Shown here: in pieces, positions 47,757 to 62,706 of the stretch
Layout: every line of letters starts with the position of its first letter
How positions within the stretch are numbered: the first letter of the stretch is position 1
Source of the DNA: a bacterium
GTDB lineage: Bacteria; UBP6; UBA1177
Assembly: GCA_017538365.1 (NCBI GenBank)
Contig: JAFYIZ010000001.1
Coordinates: 1 to 62,706, forward strand
Reading direction: 5' to 3'
Length of the DNA stretch: 62,706 bases
Notes under the pieces: generated by a model
What the model was told of the DNA's origin: nothing
Database searches by the model: none
Seen by the model: only the letters and a program-made list of their open reading frames with translations
Translations under genes and position numbers: made by a program

Positions 47757-48947
47757 ATGAAAAAACTTGCTGTTTTTATTGGATTTTTTGCTATTATGAT
47801 GTTTGTCGGCTGCGGCAAGTCGGAGAAGAGTGATTCAGACGGTGATAATATCAGAAACGATTCGGATAGCACGGAAACCTCAGACTTTGATTCGGAAGAA
47901 CCGGATAGCGGCGATCCTCACTCCGACGACGACACGGACGATCCTCAGTCCGACGGCGACACGGACGATTCACAGCCTGACGGTGACACGGGCGATCCAC
48001 AGCCTGACGGCGACACGGGTGATTCACAGCATGACGGCGACACGGGCGATTCACAGCCTGACGATGACTATGATCCGGATGCGGTTCCTGTTGAGGGCGA
48101 ACCCTTTGTTTTCGGAAAATACGAGCAGGACGGCAAAACAGGCAACGGCAGTGAGTATATCAGCTGGAGGGTTCTCGAAGTAACCGGAAACAAGGCTTTG
48201 CTGATCAGCGAAAAGGGGTTGGATGTGCGTTCTTATGATGACGAGCAGCAGGAACACTATGTTACGAACTGGGAGACCAGTAAAATCAGGGCTTGGCTGA
48301 ACGAGACCTTCTACGATGCCGCTTTCGGTCCGGAGGAAAAGGCAAAAATCCAGGAAACCCCGCTGTCGGATGTCGATACTACCGATAAAATTTTCCTCTT
48401 AAGTGAATTTGAAGCCAAGGCGTATTTCGATGGAGGGTGTGACAGGATTGTCTATCCGACAAAATTTGCATCGGGAAGCGGAGTTTATGAATGTAAAGAT
48501 GAGGCGTGCGCCAGCGGGTGTAACGGAGCCAGCTACGGTGCCGCCTCATGGCTGCTGCGTGACGAATACATAACTTGCATCAGGGTTGTAAACCACCATG
48601 GTGACATCATCAACAACGCATACTACTATCTATTCCACATACGTCCTGTATTGTGGATAAAATTCGCTCCGGACGATGTCGAGGAACCGGATGAAACGCC
48701 TGTTGCCGATGAAGATTCAGACGAAATTCCAGATACTGACGAAGATTCGGACGAAATTCCAGATACTGACGAAGATTCGGACGAAATTCCAGATACTGAT
48801 GATGATTCAGACGAAATTCCAGATACTGACGAAGATTCGGACGAAATTCCAGATACTGACGAAGATTCAGACGAAATTCCGGGTACTGATGATGATTCAG
48901 ACGAAATTTCAGATACTGATGATGATGCGGATGAAATGTTTGTATGA
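47757..48947 (+). CDS. Repeat-rich lipoprotein with DUF6273-like domain
   Basis: A 396-residue lipoprotein (lipobox MFVGC). An acidic linker built of 9-residue repeats (DSQPDGDTG type, about 53-104) precedes a compact domain (about 112-300). That domain has GEPFVFGKYEQDG, YISWRVLEV, IRAWLNETFYDAAF and a closing RPVLWIKF, as in DUF6273, a family related to sulfatase-modifying/C-type-lectin-like domains. A C-terminal tail of 10-residue repeats (DSDEIPDTDE, seven copies) follows. The ATG at 47757 has TGGAGG upstream; an in-frame ATG at 47745 overlaps that site. The stop overlaps the kinase ATG by 4 nt. It is probably displayed in the periplasm or on the surface, and the coupling suggests a link with the kinase. 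Confidence 0.82.
   Translation: MKKLAVFIGFFAIMMFVGCGKSEKSDSDGDNIRNDSDSTETSDFDSEEPDSGDPHSDDDTDDPQSDGDTDDSQPDGDTGDPQPDGDTGDSQHDGDTGDSQPDDDYDPDAVPVEGEPFVFGKYEQDGKTGNGSEYISWRVLEVTGNKALLISEKGLDVRSYDDEQQEHYVTNWETSKIRAWLNETFYDAAFGPEEKAKIQETPLSDVDTTDKIFLLSEFEAKAYFDGGCDRIVYPTKFASGSGVYECKDEACASGCNGASYGAASWLLRDEYITCIRVVNHHGDIINNAYYYLFHIRPVLWIKFAPDDVEEPDETPVADEDSDEIPDTDEDSDEIPDTDEDSDEIPDTDDDSDEIPDTDEDSDEIPDTDEDSDEIPGTDDDSDEISDTDDDADEMFV
47913..48068 (+). repeat. 27-bp in-frame tandem repeat, five copies plus a partial
   Basis: Units start at 47913 and every 27 bp: GATYCWCAG-CCTGACGGCGACACGGGC type. Five are full and a sixth is a 21-bp partial (48048-48068). They encode the nine-residue DSQPDGDTG linker. 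Copies differ at a few positions, mostly Ser/Pro and His/Pro changes. Confidence 0.9.
48711..48938 (+). repeat. 30-bp in-frame tandem repeat, seven copies plus a partial
   Basis: Units start at 48711, 48741, 48771, 48801, 48831, 48861 and 48891; each encodes the acidic decapeptide E/D-DSDEIPDTD. A degenerate eighth partial runs to 48938. Copies are nearly identical at the DNA level, suggesting recent duplication. The array ends six codon-lengths or less before the lipoprotein stop and the overlapping kinase start. Confidence 0.93.
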
Positions 48948-51900
48948 AGCAGGTTTCTCTGAAAAACGATGTGACGAAAACAGTTTCGCTTGACGCCATT
49001 TCGCCTGATTTCATTAATGATTGCAAAGAGCCTTCAGGCTGGAAATACGATGTTAAGGAAGAAATCGGACGCGGCGGAATCGGAAAAGTTATGGTTGCTT
49101 TCGATCACACGATAGGGCGTGAGATCGCTTTGAAGGAACTCATAAGCAGCGCGGAAGACGGAAGGATTCCGTCTCTCGACAAGATGCGAAGCGACGAGGC
49201 TCGGTTTTTGAGAGAGGCTTGCGTCACGGGTCAGCTTGAACATCCGGGCATCGTTCCGGTTTATGAAATCGGGCGAAAACCCGATGAAAACCGCTATTAC
49301 ACAATGCGTCTTGTCCGCGGCGTGACGCTTTCCCAGGCAATAAAGGATGCCGGAACTCTCGAAAAAAGGCTGAGACTTCTGCCTCATTTCCGTGATATCT
49401 GCAACGCCATAGCTTATTCTCACAGCCGCGGAGTGATTCACCGCGACATAAAGCCCGAAAACATCATGATAGGGGAATTCGGTGAAACGGTCGTACTGGA
49501 CTGGGGTTTGGCGAAGGTTAAAGGCGAGGATGACGCCGCCGCAGGAGAACTCCGCGAAGAATTGAATCTGCTCAAAGTCGAAAACATAGGAATGACTGTC
49601 AGAGGAAAGGCGATTGGAACTCCTGCCTATATGTCTCCGGAACAGGCGAGGGGTGATATTTCTGCGATAGACGAGCGCAGCGACATATACTCTCTGGGAG
49701 CCGTTCTTTACGAGATACTGACAGGTCTGCCGCCCTTTACTGGAAAGGATGTTCAGGAAATTCTGGAAAACGTCAAATCGGCTCTTCCTGTCGAAATCAC
49801 GGTGTATGAGCCTGCTTCTCCGCCTGATCTTTGCGCCGTTGTTGAAAAAACGCTTACAAAAGATCCCGCTTCGCGTTATCAGTCGGCTCTGGAAGTTGCA
49901 AAGGAAATCGAAAATTTCATGTCGGGCGGCAAAATTGCAGCGTATGAATACAGTTCTTGGGAGATGTTCAAGCGTTTTGTTTCCAAGAACAAGTCTCTTT
50001 CGGTGCTTGCCGTGGCGCTTCTTGCTGTTTTGATTTTTGCTTCTGTCGCCGTTTTCGGTGCTTACCGCGATTCAGTCAGCAATGAAAAGGCGGCTCATCT
50101 CAATCTTTCTCTCGGATATCTCGAGTACGCCGAAAAACTTCTGAAAGAGGGAAAGTATTCCGATTCCGAAATTTTTGCCGCGGCTTCTCTTTACAATTCT
50201 CCGTTCAACCCTATGAGTCCGTGGAGTTATTCAGATTCGTATCTCGCTGAAAATATTGATGAAAGCCGTGAACATATGCTTGAAATCCAGTCTCTGCTGT
50301 ATCTTTCCAGGGTTTACGGCAACAACGCTTTCAAAGGCAATTTTGCAAGTGTCGGTTTTGATGCACGGAATGTGGCGGTCTCCCCTGGAGCCTCTCTTTT
50401 TGCAGTTTCGGGCAAGAGGAAAGAGGTTAAGGTCTATTCGGCTGACGGAACTGAAAAGTTCATTCTCAGCGGTCACAAGGACGAAGTTAGTGCTATAGCT
50501 TTTTCTTCCGACGGCAAGTTTATCGCGACAGGAGGCTGGGACAATAATCTTATACTCTGGAACGCTTTGAACGGCGCAAAGATAAAGTCTCTGCCGACTC
50601 TTGCAGGTGAAATCTACGCTCTTTCGTTTTCGCCCGGAAACAAGTTCATCGCTTTCGGCGGTACGGAAAAAACACTCTGGGTCGTAAAAACCGATGATTT
50701 AACACTCTCTTCTGCCGGCAGATTCGAACTTGAAAACACCGTCCGCAGCATAGACTGGTCTCCCGACGGAAAAAAGATACTTGTTTCGGACAGTTCAGGA
50801 AAAATCTACATTGTAAGGAGAGACGGCATAGAAAAAGTTTTCGATTTTCACCGCGAACCGACAATTTCTGTCCGTTTTCTGAATGACGGGGTTCACTTTG
50901 TCTCGGCTAGTTACGATAAAAAATTTGCTCTCTGGAGCATACTTTTTGAGAAACCGCTTAATATTTTTGAGCATTGGGATGCTTTTTTCTCGCTTGATGT
51001 GTCGAATGACGGAACGCTGGCGGCAGCGGCAACGCGTGACGGTTCGATAAAGCTGATAAATCTCGTAACAAAGCAGATCGACGACCTTCGCGACCATGTC
51101 GGATCAGTCTATTCGGTAGCTTTTCTGCCGATGGGTAATTCGCTTGTTTCAGTTGGAGAAGACCGTTTCATCAAGATGTGGCGAACCGATTTTACCAAGG
51201 AAATGCAGCGCCTGCGCGGACATACGACCTATATTCCGTCGCTTGCGTATTCCAAAGACGACAAGTTTCTGGCTTCTTCAAGCTGGGATTACACGATAAA
51301 ACTTTGGAATATTGCTTCCGAATCGGTCATATCTTCTTTCGGTATCGAAGGAACGGTCTCCTACAGTCTGGCGTTTTCTCCCGACGGTCAGTTCCTTGCT
51401 TCGGGTGATTCTGACGGAGCGCTGCGATTCTGGAATCCGCTCACAGGCAAGATGATTTTTTCATATCCGCTTCATACCGATCAGATCACGTCGATAAACT
51501 TTTTCAACAGAGGAAAAAACATAATTTCTTCAGGAAAAGACAAAAAAGTGAAAATTTTCGATCTCTCTGAAAGGCGTATCGTAAAAGTTCTGGATCACGA
51601 AAATCCGGTGAATACCGTGGCTGTATCGGCTGACGGAACATTCGCCGCAAGTGCCGGCAGAAACGGCGAAATAAACTTCTGGAGCCTTCCGGAAGGCAAA
51701 CTTCTTTTCGGAACCAGAGGCGGGAGCGGAAAATCAGTTCTTTCACTTGCAATCTCGCCGGACAGTAAAACGGCTGTTTCGGCTGACGAGGACGGGGTCA
51801 TCAACAAGTGGGATGTGAAATCGAAGAAAATAGTCGAAACCTTCAAGGAAAATTCGGATGCAGTAAGTGCTGTCGCATTTTCGGATGACGGAAAAATGCT

Positions 51901-52156
51901 GCTTTCGGCAGGAAGGGAAGTCGTTATCAGAAACACTTCCGATTCGCAGAAGATAATGCAGTTCGACCTGCAGTACACGGCTTACAGCGTAGCATTCGAG
52001 CGCAGCGGTAAATTCTTTGTTGTAAGTGACGGGGCAGTCATCAAACGGTATCCGGTAATTTCGGAAATGTGGAAACTCGATCCTGCAAAACTTCTGGAAG
52101 AGACTCAGAATGAGGCGGGCAAAAAACTCGAAGGTTTCAAACTTATCCCGTTTTAA
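48944..52156 (+). CDS. Ser/Thr protein kinase with WD40 propellers
   Basis: A 1070-residue membrane kinase. The kinase domain (about 36-330) has EEIGRGGIGKV (Gly loop), IALKEL (Lys), VIHRDIKPENIM (catalytic loop), VLDWGLAK (DWG in place of DFG) and GTPAYMSPEQARG. One membrane helix lies at about 352-375 (LSVLAVALLAVLIFASVAVF). About fourteen WD40-like repeats follow (about 470-1040; for example HKDEVSAIAFSSDGKFIATGG and HTTYIPSLAYSKDDKFLASSS), enough for two seven-bladed propellers. These would lie outside the cytosol. The ATG overlaps the lipoprotein stop (ATGA). pncC follows 9 nt after its stop. Inferred role: sensing of a periplasmic ligand or protein by the propellers. Confidence 0.92.
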   Translation: MKQVSLKNDVTKTVSLDAISPDFINDCKEPSGWKYDVKEEIGRGGIGKVMVAFDHTIGREIALKELISSAEDGRIPSLDKMRSDEARFLREACVTGQLEHPGIVPVYEIGRKPDENRYYTMRLVRGVTLSQAIKDAGTLEKRLRLLPHFRDICNAIAYSHSRGVIHRDIKPENIMIGEFGETVVLDWGLAKVKGEDDAAAGELREELNLLKVENIGMTVRGKAIGTPAYMSPEQARGDISAIDERSDIYSLGAVLYEILTGLPPFTGKDVQEILENVKSALPVEITVYEPASPPDLCAVVEKTLTKDPASRYQSALEVAKEIENFMSGGKIAAYEYSSWEMFKRFVSKNKSLSVLAVALLAVLIFASVAVFGAYRDSVSNEKAAHLNLSLGYLEYAEKLLKEGKYSDSEIFAAASLYNSPFNPMSPWSYSDSYLAENIDESREHMLEIQSLLYLSRVYGNNAFKGNFASVGFDARNVAVSPGASLFAVSGKRKEVKVYSADGTEKFILSGHKDEVSAIAFSSDGKFIATGGWDNNLILWNALNGAKIKSLPTLAGEIYALSFSPGNKFIAFGGTEKTLWVVKTDDLTLSSAGRFELENTVRSIDWSPDGKKILVSDSSGKIYIVRRDGIEKVFDFHREPTISVRFLNDGVHFVSASYDKKFALWSILFEKPLNIFEHWDAFFSLDVSNDGTLAAAATRDGSIKLINLVTKQIDDLRDHVGSVYSVAFLPMGNSLVSVGEDRFIKMWRTDFTKEMQRLRGHTTYIPSLAYSKDDKFLASSSWDYTIKLWNIASESVISSFGIEGTVSYSLAFSPDGQFLASGDSDGALRFWNPLTGKMIFSYPLHTDQITSINFFNRGKNIISSGKDKKVKIFDLSERRIVKVLDHENPVNTVAVSADGTFAASAGRNGEINFWSLPEGKLLFGTRGGSGKSVLSLAISPDSKTAVSADEDGVINKWDVKSKKIVETFKENSDAVSAVAFSDDGKMLLSAGREVVIRNTSDSQKIMQFDLQYTAYSVAFERSGKFFVVSDGAVIKRYPVISEMWKLDPAKLLEETQNEAGKKLEGFKLIPF

Positions 52157-57166: not shown

Positions 57167-59526
57167 TTTTTTGCTCCCGAAGTGTAGAAAAGTGCGGCTA
57201 AGTATGCGGCGCAAAGCCCTGTAAATATTGAGAAACCTATCAAGTGCACCGGCTGGAAGGAGCTCAGTGCGAGTGCGCCGAAAGAGACTATCGTCGTAAA
57301 GAAAGAGAGGAAAATCGCGAAGGGTTCAAGCCTTTTTTCGTTTTCGTCTTTCGTTTTTTCGTTTTCCTGCGTGTAGATGATGTAGTCAAGCCCGAGCCCG
57401 AAGACTAAAATGATCCCTGTTACCGAGAAAAATTCGGGATGCGTGGCAGTGGCGGCAAAGACTGCCGATGTTGCGAGTATCACGATGAAGGGTATCGAGA
57501 TTATCTTGAGCGCCTGCCTGGTGGAATAGAAAAAGCGCAGCACGATGAACATGAAAATGTATGCGGCTAAGAAGAATTTGAGCACTATCGTAGTCACTTT
57601 GTCGAGGTCAGAATTTATGTCTTCGACTTTGTGGACGAAATAGGTGTTTTCGTCTTCTTCGGCAAGGCTTCTGAAAGTTTTGGAATCTGCCTGAAAATTG
57701 GGGATAACTATCGAATAATATTTGTCCTTTATTTTGCCTAACCAATAGGATGCAAGTGCTTCCTTTACTGCAGCCGGATAGTCGCCGGAACTAAGCGTAA
57801 GGAGCGTTTTTTCGGCCTCTTTGAAGCTGTTTTTGAAGTTTTCAGCCGCATTTCCATCAAATTCCAGAGTCTCGAACTGAGCAGCAGACAAGGGAAGGAG
57901 TTTTTCGACCGCGGCGCGTGAACGCAACTGTTTTTCAAGCGACGGAATGAAGACCGAAGCCGACATCACCCCTTTGTTTTCTTTGTCTATGCTCTTGATC
58001 TTTTCGCGCAGGGCCTCTTCTTTTTTCAGCACGTCGTTTTCATCGAGACCGCTCACGATGAACCAGTTTACTGGAGCGTAGGATATGACAGAGTAAGCCT
58101 CTTTTTCGTTTTCAAGAAGCTCTCCCTCTTCTTTGTAGAGTTTTTTGATGTCGTTTTCTATGCCGAAATTCTCTCTGAAAGCAAAAATGAGTGCGATCGA
58201 AACGGCTACCATCACGCATATAGCCGCCTTTCCGTTGACTTTTTTGGCGAGTCGGAACGCATGCTCAAAAAGCGTGACTCCGCGTACTACTCTGTTTTTG
58301 GGAAGGGGAATGTAGGGGAATATCACGGTCGTTGTGAGGAATGAACTGACAAGCCCGGTGACAGAAAAGAGCGACATCTGCTTGAGCAGGTTGAACGGCG
58401 CGAATATCATGGCTAAGAAGCAGACGGATGATGAGATTATCGCCATCGTGAGCCCGGGGAGGAGCTTTTTTCTTATCTCCGCGCCTGAATTCAGGTTGGT
58501 GTTTCCCGAGGCGTGGACGAAGTAGTGAAGGCTGTAATCGATCGACGAGCCTATGAGCGAAGTTCCGAAAACGAGAGTCACAAGGTGGACTTTCCCGAAG
58601 ACTGCGAAAGTGAGTGCGGCGGCTGAAAAAAGTGAGAAAAATATCGAGAGGATAGAGAGCATTATCGGGGTTGCCGAGCGGAAGACAGCAAAGAGCATCA
58701 AAACGACAATTATCATTGAAATTATTGAAATTATTTTGATTTCTTCGGCAGCCGAATTGGAGCTTTTGTGGCTGTGGAAAGTGCCGCCAGAAACGACGCA
58801 GCGCGAGCCCGATTCAGCCTTTATCTTGCCGCAGGTCTCATATATCTCGCTTATTCCGTTATCCTTTGAAGCGAGAGCGGCGCCGGCAGGGGAGAGCTCT
58901 GTTTTTATCATGACATACCAGAGACCGTTTTTTTCCGCCGCGAGGACTCCGTCATGCGGTCTCATCGCCGTTCCCGAATTTTCCAAAACTTCCAGATATT
59001 TCTGAAGGTTATGCTCTGCAAGCATGAAGGGGTCACTGTCTAAGTTGTCAAGCGGTAGCATGGTGAAAGGGCTGTAAATTCTGGAAATCGCCTCCTGCGC
59101 AAAGTCTTCCGCTCCGCCGTTTTCTATCGCTTTTATCGTTTCGTCATCAAGAATGTCAAAGCGGTATTTGTGGAAGAAACCGGCGATCTCCTTGATGTCG
59201 ACCGCGTCTGTATTGAATAAGACCGAGACGAAATATTCGCTTTTGGAGAGCTTGTCGTAGATCTTTTCAGCTCCCGCCTTCGCCTTTTCAAAATCTTTGT
59301 CGGCGACAAGAACGATGGCGACTTTGCTCAGTTTTTTCATCAGAGTCTCGTTCGCTTTTTTCAGCGATTCTTCTTCGAAAGGCTTCGGCATCATGTTTAA
59401 AAGATCGGAATCCAGAGAGAATTTTCCGCTTTCATAAGTGTAGGATATCACTAATAAAACGATGACTCCGATATGAAAGATGAGCCAGGAGATGAGGAAT
59501 GTGCGGTCAGTCTTTTTTGAATTCAT
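57163..59526 (-). CDS. RND/MMPL-family exporter (aryl-polyene-cluster-like)
   Basis: A 787-residue inner-membrane exporter with the two-fold MMPL layout. TM1 is at about 10-30, a large periplasmic loop runs to about 255, then a helical bundle with GSSIDYSLHYFVHAS. The second half ends in a bundle with GLGLDYIIYTQENEKT. It resembles the predicted exporters of aryl-polyene and related lipid clusters. ATG at 59526 has AGAGGA upstream. It overlaps lolA by 20 nt and the ketosynthase gene by 4 nt. It probably moves a lipid made with the adjacent ketosynthase. Confidence 0.87.
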   Translation of the reverse strand: MNSKKTDRTFLISWLIFHIGVIVLLVISYTYESGKFSLDSDLLNMMPKPFEEESLKKANETLMKKLSKVAIVLVADKDFEKAKAGAEKIYDKLSKSEYFVSVLFNTDAVDIKEIAGFFHKYRFDILDDETIKAIENGGAEDFAQEAISRIYSPFTMLPLDNLDSDPFMLAEHNLQKYLEVLENSGTAMRPHDGVLAAEKNGLWYVMIKTELSPAGAALASKDNGISEIYETCGKIKAESGSRCVVSGGTFHSHKSSNSAAEEIKIISIISMIIVVLMLFAVFRSATPIMLSILSIFFSLFSAAALTFAVFGKVHLVTLVFGTSLIGSSIDYSLHYFVHASGNTNLNSGAEIRKKLLPGLTMAIISSSVCFLAMIFAPFNLLKQMSLFSVTGLVSSFLTTTVIFPYIPLPKNRVVRGVTLFEHAFRLAKKVNGKAAICVMVAVSIALIFAFRENFGIENDIKKLYKEEGELLENEKEAYSVISYAPVNWFIVSGLDENDVLKKEEALREKIKSIDKENKGVMSASVFIPSLEKQLRSRAAVEKLLPLSAAQFETLEFDGNAAENFKNSFKEAEKTLLTLSSGDYPAAVKEALASYWLGKIKDKYYSIVIPNFQADSKTFRSLAEEDENTYFVHKVEDINSDLDKVTTIVLKFFLAAYIFMFIVLRFFYSTRQALKIISIPFIVILATSAVFAATATHPEFFSVTGIILVFGLGLDYIIYTQENEKTKDENEKRLEPFAIFLSFFTTIVSFGALALSSFQPVHLIGFSIFTGLCAAYLAALFYTSGAKK

Positions 59527-60142
59527 CAAGTTCCTCTTGGGTAAGTTTTTCGGGGTGTTTCTGGTGCTCGAAAATATAACTCAGGCTGCCTCCGTCGGCA
59601 AGATAAATCTCAGCCATGAAAATCGAGACTGAGCCTTTTACGAAAGTTCCTTTCATGCTCATCGACTTTATCGCATAAGAGATGGTCTTATCTTTCGGAA
59701 CGAGGAGAGCTTCCCATTTTTCGGCGCTCACCGCTTTGAAATTCACCTTGAAATTCTTGTTTATCTCGGTCGCATTTCCTGCAAAAAGGGATGAAACGAT
59801 GTCGTTGACTTTAAGAAAAGTGTCGCTGTTGAGCATACTTTTCACTGTCTTTTTGCCCTTTGCATCGGTCGAGATCATGTAGGCATCGATTATCGCAACT
59901 TTTGACGGCACCGGCTTCAGCGTCTTCCAGACGACACCGTCTCTCGTGAGGATGAAAGTTCCCGAAGATTTCAAGCTTTTTTTGAGGGCGTTCGTCTTTA
60001 TCTGCGTGAATTCGCCCGTTGTGTTCTTGTATGCGGCCAAATGTTTGCAGATCGTCTCGAATGTGAGCTCTTCAGCCGGAAAAAGTGGAAGGATGGCGAA
60101 GATCATAACCAAAAAGATCAATATTCTTGTGCGTTTTTTCAT
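59507..60142 (-). CDS. LolA-like outer-membrane lipoprotein carrier
   Basis: A 211-residue periplasmic protein with signal peptide (ILIFLVMIFAILPLFPA). The LolA/LolB fold pattern is seen in CKHLAAYKNTTGEFTQIKT, SGTFILTRDGVVWKTLKP (typical LolA strand pair) and MSTDAKGKKTV. It ferries lipoproteins or lipids between membranes. Because it sits with an MMPL exporter and a ketosynthase, it may carry the cluster's lipid rather than lipoproteins; this is inference. ATG at 60142 has AGAGG upstream, preceded by short tandem repeats. Confidence 0.83.
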   Translation of the reverse strand: MKKRTRILIFLVMIFAILPLFPAEELTFETICKHLAAYKNTTGEFTQIKTNALKKSLKSSGTFILTRDGVVWKTLKPVPSKVAIIDAYMISTDAKGKKTVKSMLNSDTFLKVNDIVSSLFAGNATEINKNFKVNFKAVSAEKWEALLVPKDKTISYAIKSMSMKGTFVKGSVSIFMAEIYLADGGSLSYIFEHQKHPEKLTQEELDEFKKD

Positions 60143-60155
60143 GTGTGCCTCTGTT

Positions 60156-60281
60156 ATCACTTGTTTTTATCGCTTGTTTTTGTCGCTTGTTTTAATTTCC
60201 CAATAAGTGTGCTTCCCAACCTACTTCCCAACTTACTTCCCAACTCATGGGTGACACCGTGGGGGACATCGTGAGAGACAT
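60156..60281. repeat. Three adjacent short tandem arrays (13-bp, 12-bp and 12-bp units, three copies each)
   Basis: Array 1, 60156-60194: ATCACTTGTTTTT, ATCGCTTGTTTTT, GTCGCTTGTTTTA. Array 2, 60211-60246: GCTTCCCAACCT, ACTTCCCAACTT, ACTTCCCAACTC. Array 3, 60246-60281: CATGGGTGACAC, CGTGGGGGACAT, CGTGAGAGACAT. They fill the lolA leader region between lolA and the defence-type operon. No gene or clear promoter is seen in 60143-60309 apart from these. Confidence 0.88.
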
Positions 60282-60309
60282 TTAAGATATGCAAATATAA
60301 CATAATTTT

Positions 60310-60438
60310 TTATTCCAACTGTTTTCTGTAGACTGTATCTAATGTTTGTCCGATCTGGCCAATCTTGTTGCTGATGAACACATACTGAGTTCCTTTCGGA
60401 TCTCCGTCAATCAGATACGTTGTTACTGTCTTGCCCAT
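60310..60438 (-). CDS. 42-residue small ORF, possible remnant of a GIY-YIG-associated N-terminal segment
   Basis: An intact 43-codon frame: MGKTVTTYLIDGDPKG...TQYVFISNKIGQIG..., ending KQLE-stop. It starts 5 nt after the OLD-like gene stop on the same strand, so cotranslation is plausible; the ribosome-binding site is weak. The pattern KTVTTYLIDGDPKG...ISNKIGQ resembles, from memory, the first about 40 residues of a group of GIY-YIG nuclease proteins (K-T-I-x-x-F-L-I-D-G-x-P-x-G). It could be a decayed remnant or a real small protein. The match is weak. Confidence 0.5.
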   Translation of the reverse strand: MGKTVTTYLIDGDPKGTQYVFISNKIGQIGQTLDTVYRKQLE

Positions 60439-60443
60439 AGTAT

Positions 60444-62396
60444 TTATCCCAAGTCAAAAACTTCTAATAGCTTATCCAATACTGGCTTAAAACCATCGAA
60501 CCACTTATCGCGAAAATCTTTTTTTTCATAGTTGTCTTCTATATAATGTTTAATTGTGCCAGCTGTTCCATTTTTACCCATAGTAAGTTGTCTGAAATCT
60601 TTATGTTTTCTTGCAGATATCACAGGTTTTATAACTTTTTGGTAAGATTTTTCTGAGAATAAATCCTCAACAAGAAAAGAGTGTTCTTGCAATATCTTTA
60701 ATTCATTATTATTTGCAGTCCTAACATCCTCATCTAAAGTTGGGTATGCAGATGAAGAGTAGTCATCTTGGTAAAACAAGGGAATTATCTTTGAATTTTT
60801 ATCGTGTAGCTTCTTAATTTGCTTCCAACCACTTTTCCACCCATCATCATCGTAATCAAAAAGAAATACAATCTTCTCAATTTTATCTATACATTGAGAA
60901 AATATTTGTTTATAGATAAGCTTTGCAGCCCCTGCACTATTTGCTGAAATAATAGCAATATCTTTAAGTTTATAATATTTTTTATCACTTTTAGCGAATA
61001 TATTTATAGCTTTCTTTAAATATCCCTCGTCATATTTTCCTTCAACAACCAGAATTTTTTTAGAACTCAGAATAAAAGATCCTTCCAAATAATTAATTGC
61101 GCCATCTGACAATAAACTGATTTCTCTTAATCTGTCGGTATTGTGTGCAGATCCGTTATCCATATAACGAATATTATTGTCGTTATATAACATATCTAAA
61201 AAAACAGGAGAATGTGTTGTTACAAGGCTATATCTCTTATCTGTATCAATTAGTTCTTTCAATTCTCTTTGTTTTCCAATGTGGATATGTGCATCTGGTT
61301 CATCGAACAGACACAAACTATTTTCTGTAGATAAGATGTGAATTACGACATTTGCGTTTATTAATTTTTTTTCACCTTCACTTAATCCCTCAAGAGATCC
61401 TCTGTTATCAAATTCAATATTAATCTTTTTGATTATTTGCTTATCACCATCTGTTCTGCATTTATATAAACAGTAAAACAGAGTGCTTGCTTTATCAATA
61501 AAGCTGATATCGTTAATTGTTTTTCTAAAGGATTCAATATCGTAGTCTGATTTTTCTCTTAACTTATTAATAAAACCTTCGACATCACTTCCTACCCATT
61601 TTTGAATATTTGAAGTGTTATAATCAAACGATATTTTGCAAGCGGATGTTCCGATAAGATCATTTATAAATTTTATAACGTCTATATCTTCAGAATACAA
61701 GAGTGTAAGCAATGATATTTCCCATTCATCACGGCTGAGATAAAACATAAAAGGAGGTTCAAATCCTTGTTTAACTATGTTGCTACGATATTTTTTATAA
61801 AAAGGCTTGTAGCACTCTTCCCATAATCTTGTGTCTTCGCCGCTATATGAAGCTATAATATTTTGGGGAAGGATGTCAGGAGTTATTTTGTTGCCATCTT
61901 TTAAGATTCCATCTGAAATTTCATATAATTTCCCTTTTAAAATATATCGAATTGTATATTGAAATTCACAAGAATATTTTTTTAATCCATTTTTTAATGT
62001 CGCAATGTGATATAAGCTATAAAAAATCAAACTTATAGCTTCTAAAACATTGCTTTTCCCAGAACCATTTAACCCTATAAAGCAGCAGTAATTATGTGTG
62101 AACTTCAAATCCACAAAAAAATCGACAAGGTTTTTGTATCCCTTTATTTTTAAAAAATATAATTGGAAATTGTTTGATTTATAGCACAAGGATGTATGTT
62201 GATCTATATAGCAATCTTTGTAATACGGATATGTTAGTAAATTGTTACTATCAAGCCAACGGTCAATTTCATCACATCTGCCTGATGTTCTTCTTTTAAC
62301 TCCAAAAGCTTTTAGAAGTTCTCTTAGTGTTATATATTTGTTTTGTTTAGTTTCTTGTATGTCTCTGGCCAATTTATTTAAATATTCTTTGTTCAT
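60444..62396 (-). CDS. ABC-type ATPase fused to TOPRIM domain (OLD-family-like nuclease)
   Basis: A 650-residue protein. Residues about 1-70 form a small, unrecognised domain (TLRELLKAFGVKRRTSGRCD, EIDRWLDSNNLLTYPYY). The ATPase starts FLKIKGYKNL with Walker A GLNGSGKSN, signature LSEGEKKL, Walker B LCLFDEPDAH and H-loop TTHSP. A C-terminal TOPRIM domain has ILVVEGKYDEGYL (Glu) and FLFDYDDDGW (DxD). This order is that of OLD/AAA15-TOPRIM nucleases, many of which act in phage defence. It is clearly AT-rich with many AUA/UUA codons, unlike its left neighbours, so it was probably acquired. It starts 2 nt after an hsdS gene, as R-linked ATPases in type I restriction loci do. Confidence 0.88.
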   Translation of the reverse strand: MNKEYLNKLARDIQETKQNKYITLRELLKAFGVKRRTSGRCDEIDRWLDSNNLLTYPYYKDCYIDQHTSLCYKSNNFQLYFLKIKGYKNLVDFFVDLKFTHNYCCFIGLNGSGKSNVLEAISLIFYSLYHIATLKNGLKKYSCEFQYTIRYILKGKLYEISDGILKDGNKITPDILPQNIIASYSGEDTRLWEECYKPFYKKYRSNIVKQGFEPPFMFYLSRDEWEISLLTLLYSEDIDVIKFINDLIGTSACKISFDYNTSNIQKWVGSDVEGFINKLREKSDYDIESFRKTINDISFIDKASTLFYCLYKCRTDGDKQIIKKINIEFDNRGSLEGLSEGEKKLINANVVIHILSTENSLCLFDEPDAHIHIGKQRELKELIDTDKRYSLVTTHSPVFLDMLYNDNNIRYMDNGSAHNTDRLREISLLSDGAINYLEGSFILSSKKILVVEGKYDEGYLKKAINIFAKSDKKYYKLKDIAIISANSAGAAKLIYKQIFSQCIDKIEKIVFLFDYDDDGWKSGWKQIKKLHDKNSKIIPLFYQDDYSSSAYPTLDEDVRTANNNELKILQEHSFLVEDLFSEKSYQKVIKPVISARKHKDFRQLTMGKNGTAGTIKHYIEDNYEKKDFRDKWFDGFKPVLDKLLEVFDLG

Positions 62397-62398
62397 AA

Positions 62399-62706
62399 CT
62401 ACTCAAAAACCTCCTTTTCAAATTCTTCCAACGCTTCTTTTCTCAATGTTTCTGCCAGTTGTTTTAGTTCTTTGATTTGTGACTTTTTTTCATTGATATT
62501 CTCAACTATTGCGTTTTGGATTTTAAGTGGTGGCAGGGGAATAAGAATTTTCTTCAAATCTTTATTAGTGATTGCAGGGTATAAAGCTCCTGACATAAAC
62601 AACTCAAACTGAGAGATTGCTATAGGTGATTTTAAGAACTCGTATAAATATGAAAGATTATAAGTGTCTTTGGGAGCAACCACTTGAAATCCAGATGAAC
62701 AAACAC
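62399..62706 (-). CDS. hsdS: Type I restriction-modification specificity subunit HsdS, C-terminal part (runs off window)
   Basis: The frame is open to the right edge, so the 5' part is missing. About 101 codons are visible. CSSGFQVVAPKD, YNLSYLYEFLKSP and MSGALYPAITNKDLKKILIPLPPL follow the end of an HsdS target-recognition domain. The C-terminal coiled coil follows (ENINEKKSQIKELKQLAETL). HsdS directs the methylase and translocase subunits to their DNA site. hsdM and hsdR would lie beyond the window. AT-rich, like the ATPase-TOPRIM gene it adjoins. Confidence 0.88.
   Translation of the reverse strand, partial: VCSSGFQVVAPKDTYNLSYLYEFLKSPIAISQFELFMSGALYPAITNKDLKKILIPLPPLKIQNAIVENINEKKSQIKELKQLAETLRKEALEEFEKEVFE

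Follow-up and report, generated by a model that had tools for sequence, protein, structure and literature searches.

The DNA analysed here, referred to as the window, is a stretch of 62,706 nucleotides that makes up the entire contig C30 of its genome. Its right end carries three minus-strand frames, of which the right-hand two are exactly 2 nt apart (62397-62398) and the left-hand two 5 nt apart (60439-60443). From right to left they are the 3' part of an hsdS gene (62399-62704), a gene for a 650-aa ABC ATPase-TOPRIM protein (60444-62396) and a 42-codon frame (60310-60438). An earlier note, made from the sequence alone, had described three tightly packed frames in a block that is AT-rich relative to the DNA on its left. 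The ORF coordinates bear out the first point and the base composition the second, GC being 0.298 (30%) in the ATPase gene and 0.459 (46%) in the 40-60 kb to the left. The junction with the core genome had been called repeat-filled. A repeat search did find direct repeats at the left edge of the insertion (60154-60247; strand not applicable), but these are few, short and modest, namely three of 12 nt and two of 13 nt. The insertion is bounded by a LolA-like core gene (59507-60160, minus strand), which was identified by domain search, is conserved in G006:C1 and is not part of the system. A 48-codon frame at 60157-60303, with HDVPHGVTHELGSKLGSRLG repeats, resembles the variable linker of AlbA_2-type regulators; BLAST against the fetched loci gave no relative of it. 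Farther to the left, a 1070-aa frame (48944-52156) looks like a Ser/Thr kinase whose C-terminus is of the WD40 type and is unrelated to the restriction locus. Scans for promoters and terminators gave matches at or below chance level.

The hsdS gene is represented by its last 101 codons, which encode the second target-recognition domain (Methylase_S, 9.7e-08) and run open into the contig end, so the S subunit is present in part. The protein that follows contains an N-terminal domain (residues 1-78; 62163-62396), an ABC ATPase part (residues 79-400; 61197-62162) and a TOPRIM half (residues 401-650; 60447-61196), all on the minus strand. Domain search matched it to AAA_21 (4.4e-15), SMC_N (1.9e-12) and AAA_15 (1.7e-08), and weakly to an OLD-like TOPRIM (0.0067). 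The identities proposed earlier, hsdS followed by an OLD-like ATPase-TOPRIM nuclease, are consistent with these matches. The ATPase motifs comprise a Walker A motif (residues 108-115), the signature LSEGEK (338), a Walker B motif with DEPD (361-368) and an H-loop (393-397). In the TOPRIM half, all five homologues share E452, G453, D456, D514, D516, E577, K599 and K616 without variation. The frame is fully intact, and the single chain unites Walker A, signature, Walker B and H-loop with the TOPRIM E and DxD, the combination by which an OLD-like protein is recognized.

The two halves of the protein have different nearest relatives among known defence proteins. The best PADLOC match of the ATPase head is PtuA of Septu/retron I-A (96 bits, partial), and a profile built from the five homologues matches the structures of the retron Ec83 ATPase, OLD, AriA and PtuA. 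The TOPRIM half is nearest to the RT-TOPRIM protein of retron Ec67, not to GajA or AriB, although the match is remote (32 bits). Defence by Eco2, which has an RNase TOPRIM, is abolished when residues of the same pattern are lost (PMC12405507). Among the homologues compared, the N-terminal 78 residues are found only in the window protein and its closest relative, from locus L022. These residues weakly resemble the beginning of the anti-phage protein DS-11 CBS (1.2e-07), over a region that overlaps a weak match to the N-terminus of retron Ec78 PtuA. The earlier note could not name the combination with this domain, and indeed none of the named systems gives a match along the whole protein; the domain itself, however, has weak kin in DS-11 CBS and Ec78 PtuA. 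Searches of PDB by phmmer with the TOPRIM half or the N-terminal domain alone were unproductive. An AlphaFold model of the whole protein from two sequences was poor (pLDDT 35), and Foldseek gave no significant match for a model of the N-terminal domain (pLDDT 58).

The 42-codon frame is what is left of a 275-codon GIY-YIG/DUF4357 (PDC-S14) gene. Its first 28 codons encode the N-terminus of the GIY-YIG/DUF4357 protein at 96% identity, and its last 13-14 codons match the end. DNA alignments to full-length homologues break off at 60353 and restart at 60352, which places the junction of a 699-bp in-frame deletion at 60352-60353 on the minus strand. The missing stretch corresponds to L028 9982-10680 in a paralogue from the same genome. 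With 42 of 275 codons remaining, neither the GIY-YIG nor the DUF4357 domain is complete. The small downstream ORF that had been counted as an operon member is therefore a real frame but not an independent small partner gene, and its candidacy as a small toxin or antitoxin was rejected. The two sides of the deletion share no long word at the junction, and an assembly artefact is unlikely for this reason. G006 holds a copy that is truncated differently, and the gene is absent or truncated at other loci too. An intact paralogue, 90% identical, lies on contig C10 of the same genome (L028 9896-10723) and could act in trans. Copies of the same gene, approximately 90% identical, stand at the end of restriction-modification (RM) cassettes that differ in methylase type and lie at several places in the chromosomes of one genus (L028, L022, L023, L029, L055, L056, L057 and L058), as if the gene were a shared 3' module of a mobile cassette.

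An intact gene set is preserved in L022 (contig JAEESW010000005.1 of MAG RUG.391, identical to G008:C41). The order there is an AlbA_2-type regulator, an HSDR_N_2-N6_Mtase protein of 765 aa, hsdS, an ATPase-TOPRIM protein of 643 aa and a GIY-YIG/DUF4357 protein of 275 aa; the last four genes are separated by 6, 2 and 2 nt. The L022 methylase carries HSDR_N_2 (1.2e-25) and N6_Mtase (1.8e-37) domains, and thus nuclease and methylase in one chain. A methylase 88% identical to the L022 type over 599 residues is encoded in the genome of the window at C8:1-1797, where it is cut by the contig edge; its frame is open over these 599 residues. C8, L022 and L061 all retain the nuclease motif (AD...VECK) as well as the methylase motifs (DPCCGSG, NPPF). 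In the sister genome G006, a single contig shows a different RM cassette between LolA and MMPL genes on one side and thioesterase and acyltransferase genes on the other. Since the same flanking genes bracket the cassette there, C30 and C8 are most simply explained as the two edges of one insertion, so that the missing last part of the methylase gene and first part of hsdS would fall in the gap between them. Both genes are incomplete because of this assembly gap, and the operon is therefore reconstructed by synteny.

The earlier note had recommended extending the contig rightward for hsdM and hsdR. Synteny supplies the methylase, on C8, but no hsdR is found at the homologous loci of four species or on a Flammeovirga plasmid (L022, L023, L024, L029 and L061). 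Given that the relatives lack hsdR and that the nuclease is fused to the methylase, the chassis is, as judged from sequence, a nuclease-fused N6-methylase with a separate S subunit, type IIG/IIB-like rather than classical type I. Of the proposal that this is a type I restriction locus with an added effector, the restriction locus and the OLD-like effector beside hsdS stand, but the classical type I assignment does not.

The 650-aa protein is a recombinant, with a head from an L022-type parent and a tail nearest to L023. Compared with the L022 protein, the N-terminal domain is 74% identical and the ATPase 86%, but from residue 401 on identity falls to 29%; compared with the L023 protein, the ATPase reaches 35% and the TOPRIM half 46%. 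DNA identity to L022 (87%) stops at 61201, and DNA identity to L023 (85%) runs over the last codons of the ATPase-TOPRIM gene and into the beginning of the GIY-YIG gene. The 5-nt gap downstream is the same as in L023, unlike the 2 nt in L022. Before residue 400, 163 sites agree with L022 only and 6 with L023 only; afterwards the counts are 23 and 59. Since sites that are unevenly conserved might give the false impression of such a break, the informative sites were permuted; none of 5000 permutations reached the break observed after residue 400. The best protein breakpoint and the end of the L022 DNA identity place the breakpoint at 61196-61201 (minus strand), just behind the ATPase H-loop and at the border to the nuclease half.

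A wider exchange is seen in the slot after hsdS. Across the genus the methylases are at least 82% identical, while the gene after S differs. L022 has a protein with a similar head and another tail, L023 and L024 have ATPase-TOPRIM proteins without the N-terminal domain, and L029 (G012) has the Septu pair, PtuA and PtuB. Over 271 residues, the TOPRIM half of L024 (G002) shares 34% identity with an RT-TOPRIM protein of Herpetosiphon (2e-42). The contents of the slot are thus exchanged between species behind a conserved restriction chassis, in a sample of homologous loci that comprises one genus and a few plasmids.

Within that sample, the coupling of the effector to hsdS is constant. The gap between the two genes is 2 nt in four species, and on the Flammeovirga plasmid (Bacteroidota), which likewise has methylase, S and ATPase-TOPRIM genes in this order, the S and ATPase genes overlap by one base. 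All full-length homologues found adjoin hsdS directly downstream. The five-sequence profile had five matches in 386 genomes, every one at a methylase-S locus and none stand-alone; a second sample of 384 genomes gave no match, and a scan of genome contigs recovered only L022, on the contig already known as G008:C41. None of 401 candidate stretches in viral contigs was confirmed, and the only match in phages was to the ATPase part alone. On distant plasmids (Pantoea, Vibrio, Pseudoalteromonas and Roseomonas), a PtuA-like ATPase gene directly follows S with a methylase nearby, and a PtuB-like HNH gene comes next after the ATPase in three of the four loci tested. The association with hsd genes suspected in the earlier note therefore holds once homologues are collected and their neighbours tabulated, and no named system, Gabija and PARIS included, matches the protein over its full length.

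The genomic sites of these cassettes recur within the genus. L022, L023 and L028 lie between ammonia-lyase and flavodoxin genes, and L024 and L029 beside a methionyl-tRNA synthetase gene; both sites are recurrent defence hotspots in which the RM cassette differs by species. A second cassette type, at L058 8340-14167 (G006) and L056 1216-8450 (G009), has its own HSDR_N_2-N6_Mtase, an S gene and a PADLOC PDC-S56 protein, the last being one 666-aa gene in G006 and seemingly split in G009 (222 and 443 aa). At L030 6611-15257 (G006), an apparent hsdR-M-S operon is followed by a PtuA-PtuB-like pair, and the Septu-type pair thus apparently also attaches to what seems to be a true type I system.

It is proposed, with moderate confidence, that the block represents the 3' half of a type IIG/IIB-like RM operon, gained by horizontal transfer, in which an exchangeable slot after hsdS holds a second-line, abortive effector. 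The methylase-S complex would mark self DNA and cut unmarked DNA as the first line of defence. A dimer of the ATPase would hold the TOPRIM idle until it senses an infection cue, perhaps the failure or inhibition of the restriction complex. Such a second-line role is suggested by PrrC, an RNase that kills its own host cell and guards the restriction system in whose operon it resides. Once triggered, the TOPRIM would cleave RNA, as the TOPRIM of Eco2 does, and growth would stop before phage release; RNA is the presumed target because the TOPRIM domains of Eco2 and PARIS cleave RNA (PMC12405507; PMC12839542). The substrate could instead be DNA, as it is for OLD, GajA and Septu.

A DNA substrate is central to the main alternative, in which the ATPase-TOPRIM protein is a true DNA-cutting or DNA-processing subunit of the restriction system. 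It would load at DNA marked by methylase-S or at ends that the fused nuclease has produced, and would break down phage DNA while the cell survives. DNA is the substrate of the TOPRIM enzymes of OLD and Gabija (PMC10568477), the PtuAB pair of Septu is reported to target DNA in one strain (PMC11555353), and both the 2-nt coupling to hsdS in four species and the missing hsdR of the relatives fit such a subunit. However, an intact nuclease motif is already present in the methylase, the TOPRIM half is nearest to that of Ec67/Eco2, an RNase, and the effector is swapped for unrelated nucleases while the chassis stays constant. Because the effector is replaced and the chassis is not, an add-on fits better than a core subunit, and the subunit alternative seems doubtful.

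The same exchangeability of the slot, the varied cassettes of the genus hotspots and a GIY-YIG end gene common to unrelated cassettes could also be expected if an RM system and a stand-alone OLD/PtuA-like system were mere neighbours on a mobile cassette, without functional coupling. This is unlikely, since gaps of 2 nt or an overlap with hsdS persist across two phyla, all five genome matches lie at methylase-S loci with none stand-alone, and the ATPases of distant plasmids follow hsdS as well. That the locus is a decaying remnant, with hsdS and the methylase truly interrupted rather than divided by assembly, would agree with the GIY-YIG deletion and with two genes stopping at contig edges, but it is highly improbable given an ATPase-TOPRIM frame and a 599-residue methylase frame that retain their motifs, breaks at contig ends as expected where hsdS varies among strains, and a GIY-YIG gene missing or truncated at other loci as well.

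The proposal of a second-line effector can be carried further, to a tentative model in which the methylase-S complex itself is the sensor or antitoxin for interchangeable effectors of retron and Septu type. A phage that disables restriction would free the TOPRIM RNase by way of the PtuA-like ATPase, and recombination at the domain border would swap the killing domain and keep the sensor head.

ABC ATPases linked to restriction genes are already known (TIGR04435; PMC12839542), and OLD-ABC proteins have been described as backup effectors of BREX, with earlier RM-like systems cited (PMC12839542). In the literature searched, there is no description of a retron-type TOPRIM in a methylase-S operon, of the exchangeable slot or of the domain swap. 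An earlier survey of ABC ATPases that PMC12839542 cites, presumably Krishnan et al. 2020, may contain an earlier description of the exact architecture. What appears to be new in the setting of RM-linked ABC ATPases is the retron-type TOPRIM, the exchangeable slot and the domain swap. Retrons, Septu and restriction are usually filed as separate defences; in this genus one restriction chassis carries effectors of the retron kind and of the Septu kind in a single slot. With the nuclease half cleanly exchanged and the ATPase head conserved, one can test whether the trigger is set by the head together with its restriction partners, and the target by the tail.

Comparison with known systems places the window protein near several of them. 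TIGR04435, the 'restriction system-associated AAA family ATPase' of the RM-linked PtuA family, is likewise an ABC ATPase that follows hsdS and is linked to an N6-methylase. The window protein, however, stays at 49 bits where the cut-off is 300, and has a fused TOPRIM, whereas the RM-linked PtuA-family ATPases are followed by a separate gene, PtuB-like HNH in three of the four tested. Septu and retron I-A share the PtuA-like head, and PtuA-PtuB occupies the equivalent slot in G012; the name Septu was rejected because the window has no PtuB, which is present in the sister locus L029, and a fused TOPRIM takes the place of the HNH partner. The TOPRIM half matches the C-terminus of the Ec67/Eco2 RT-TOPRIM protein, with a similar pattern of catalytic residues (PMC12405507), but an ABC ATPase stands where the retron has its RT. 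No RT was found in the operons of the relatives, no msr/msd RNA was matched by Rfam and no known RNA family adjoins the gene; retron was therefore rejected as the name of the system. The only RT found in the genome of the window, a 412-aa frame at L079 (G000:C25:86166-86846), lies far from the TOPRIM gene and is possibly a retron, a DRT or a group II intron.

MADS has methylase, S and ABC ATPase genes in common with the locus and the L022 methylase matches MAD2, but at 292 bits against a cut-off of 720, and MAD3 reaches 17.8 against 420, so that MADS was rejected. Gabija was rejected since the relatives have no gene of the GajB UvrD-like helicase type and the GajA match is partial (45.5 bits at best), and PARIS since AriAB scores 51 bits with its best stretch confined to residues 324-472. 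OLD classes 1-4 (P2 Old, Gabija GajA, Retron-Eco8 and PARIS), which are defined by genomic context (PMC10568477), combine an ABC ATPase with a TOPRIM, in one protein in classes 1-3. The profile matches to them are partial, and the methylase-S context corresponds to none of the four, so the locus would extend OLD-like nucleases to a setting beyond the described classes. The PrrC anticodon nuclease, which appears with a type I RM system in PMC11555353, differs in its nuclease fold and in the classical type I enzyme that is lacking here, but it has a working model similar to the one proposed for this operon.
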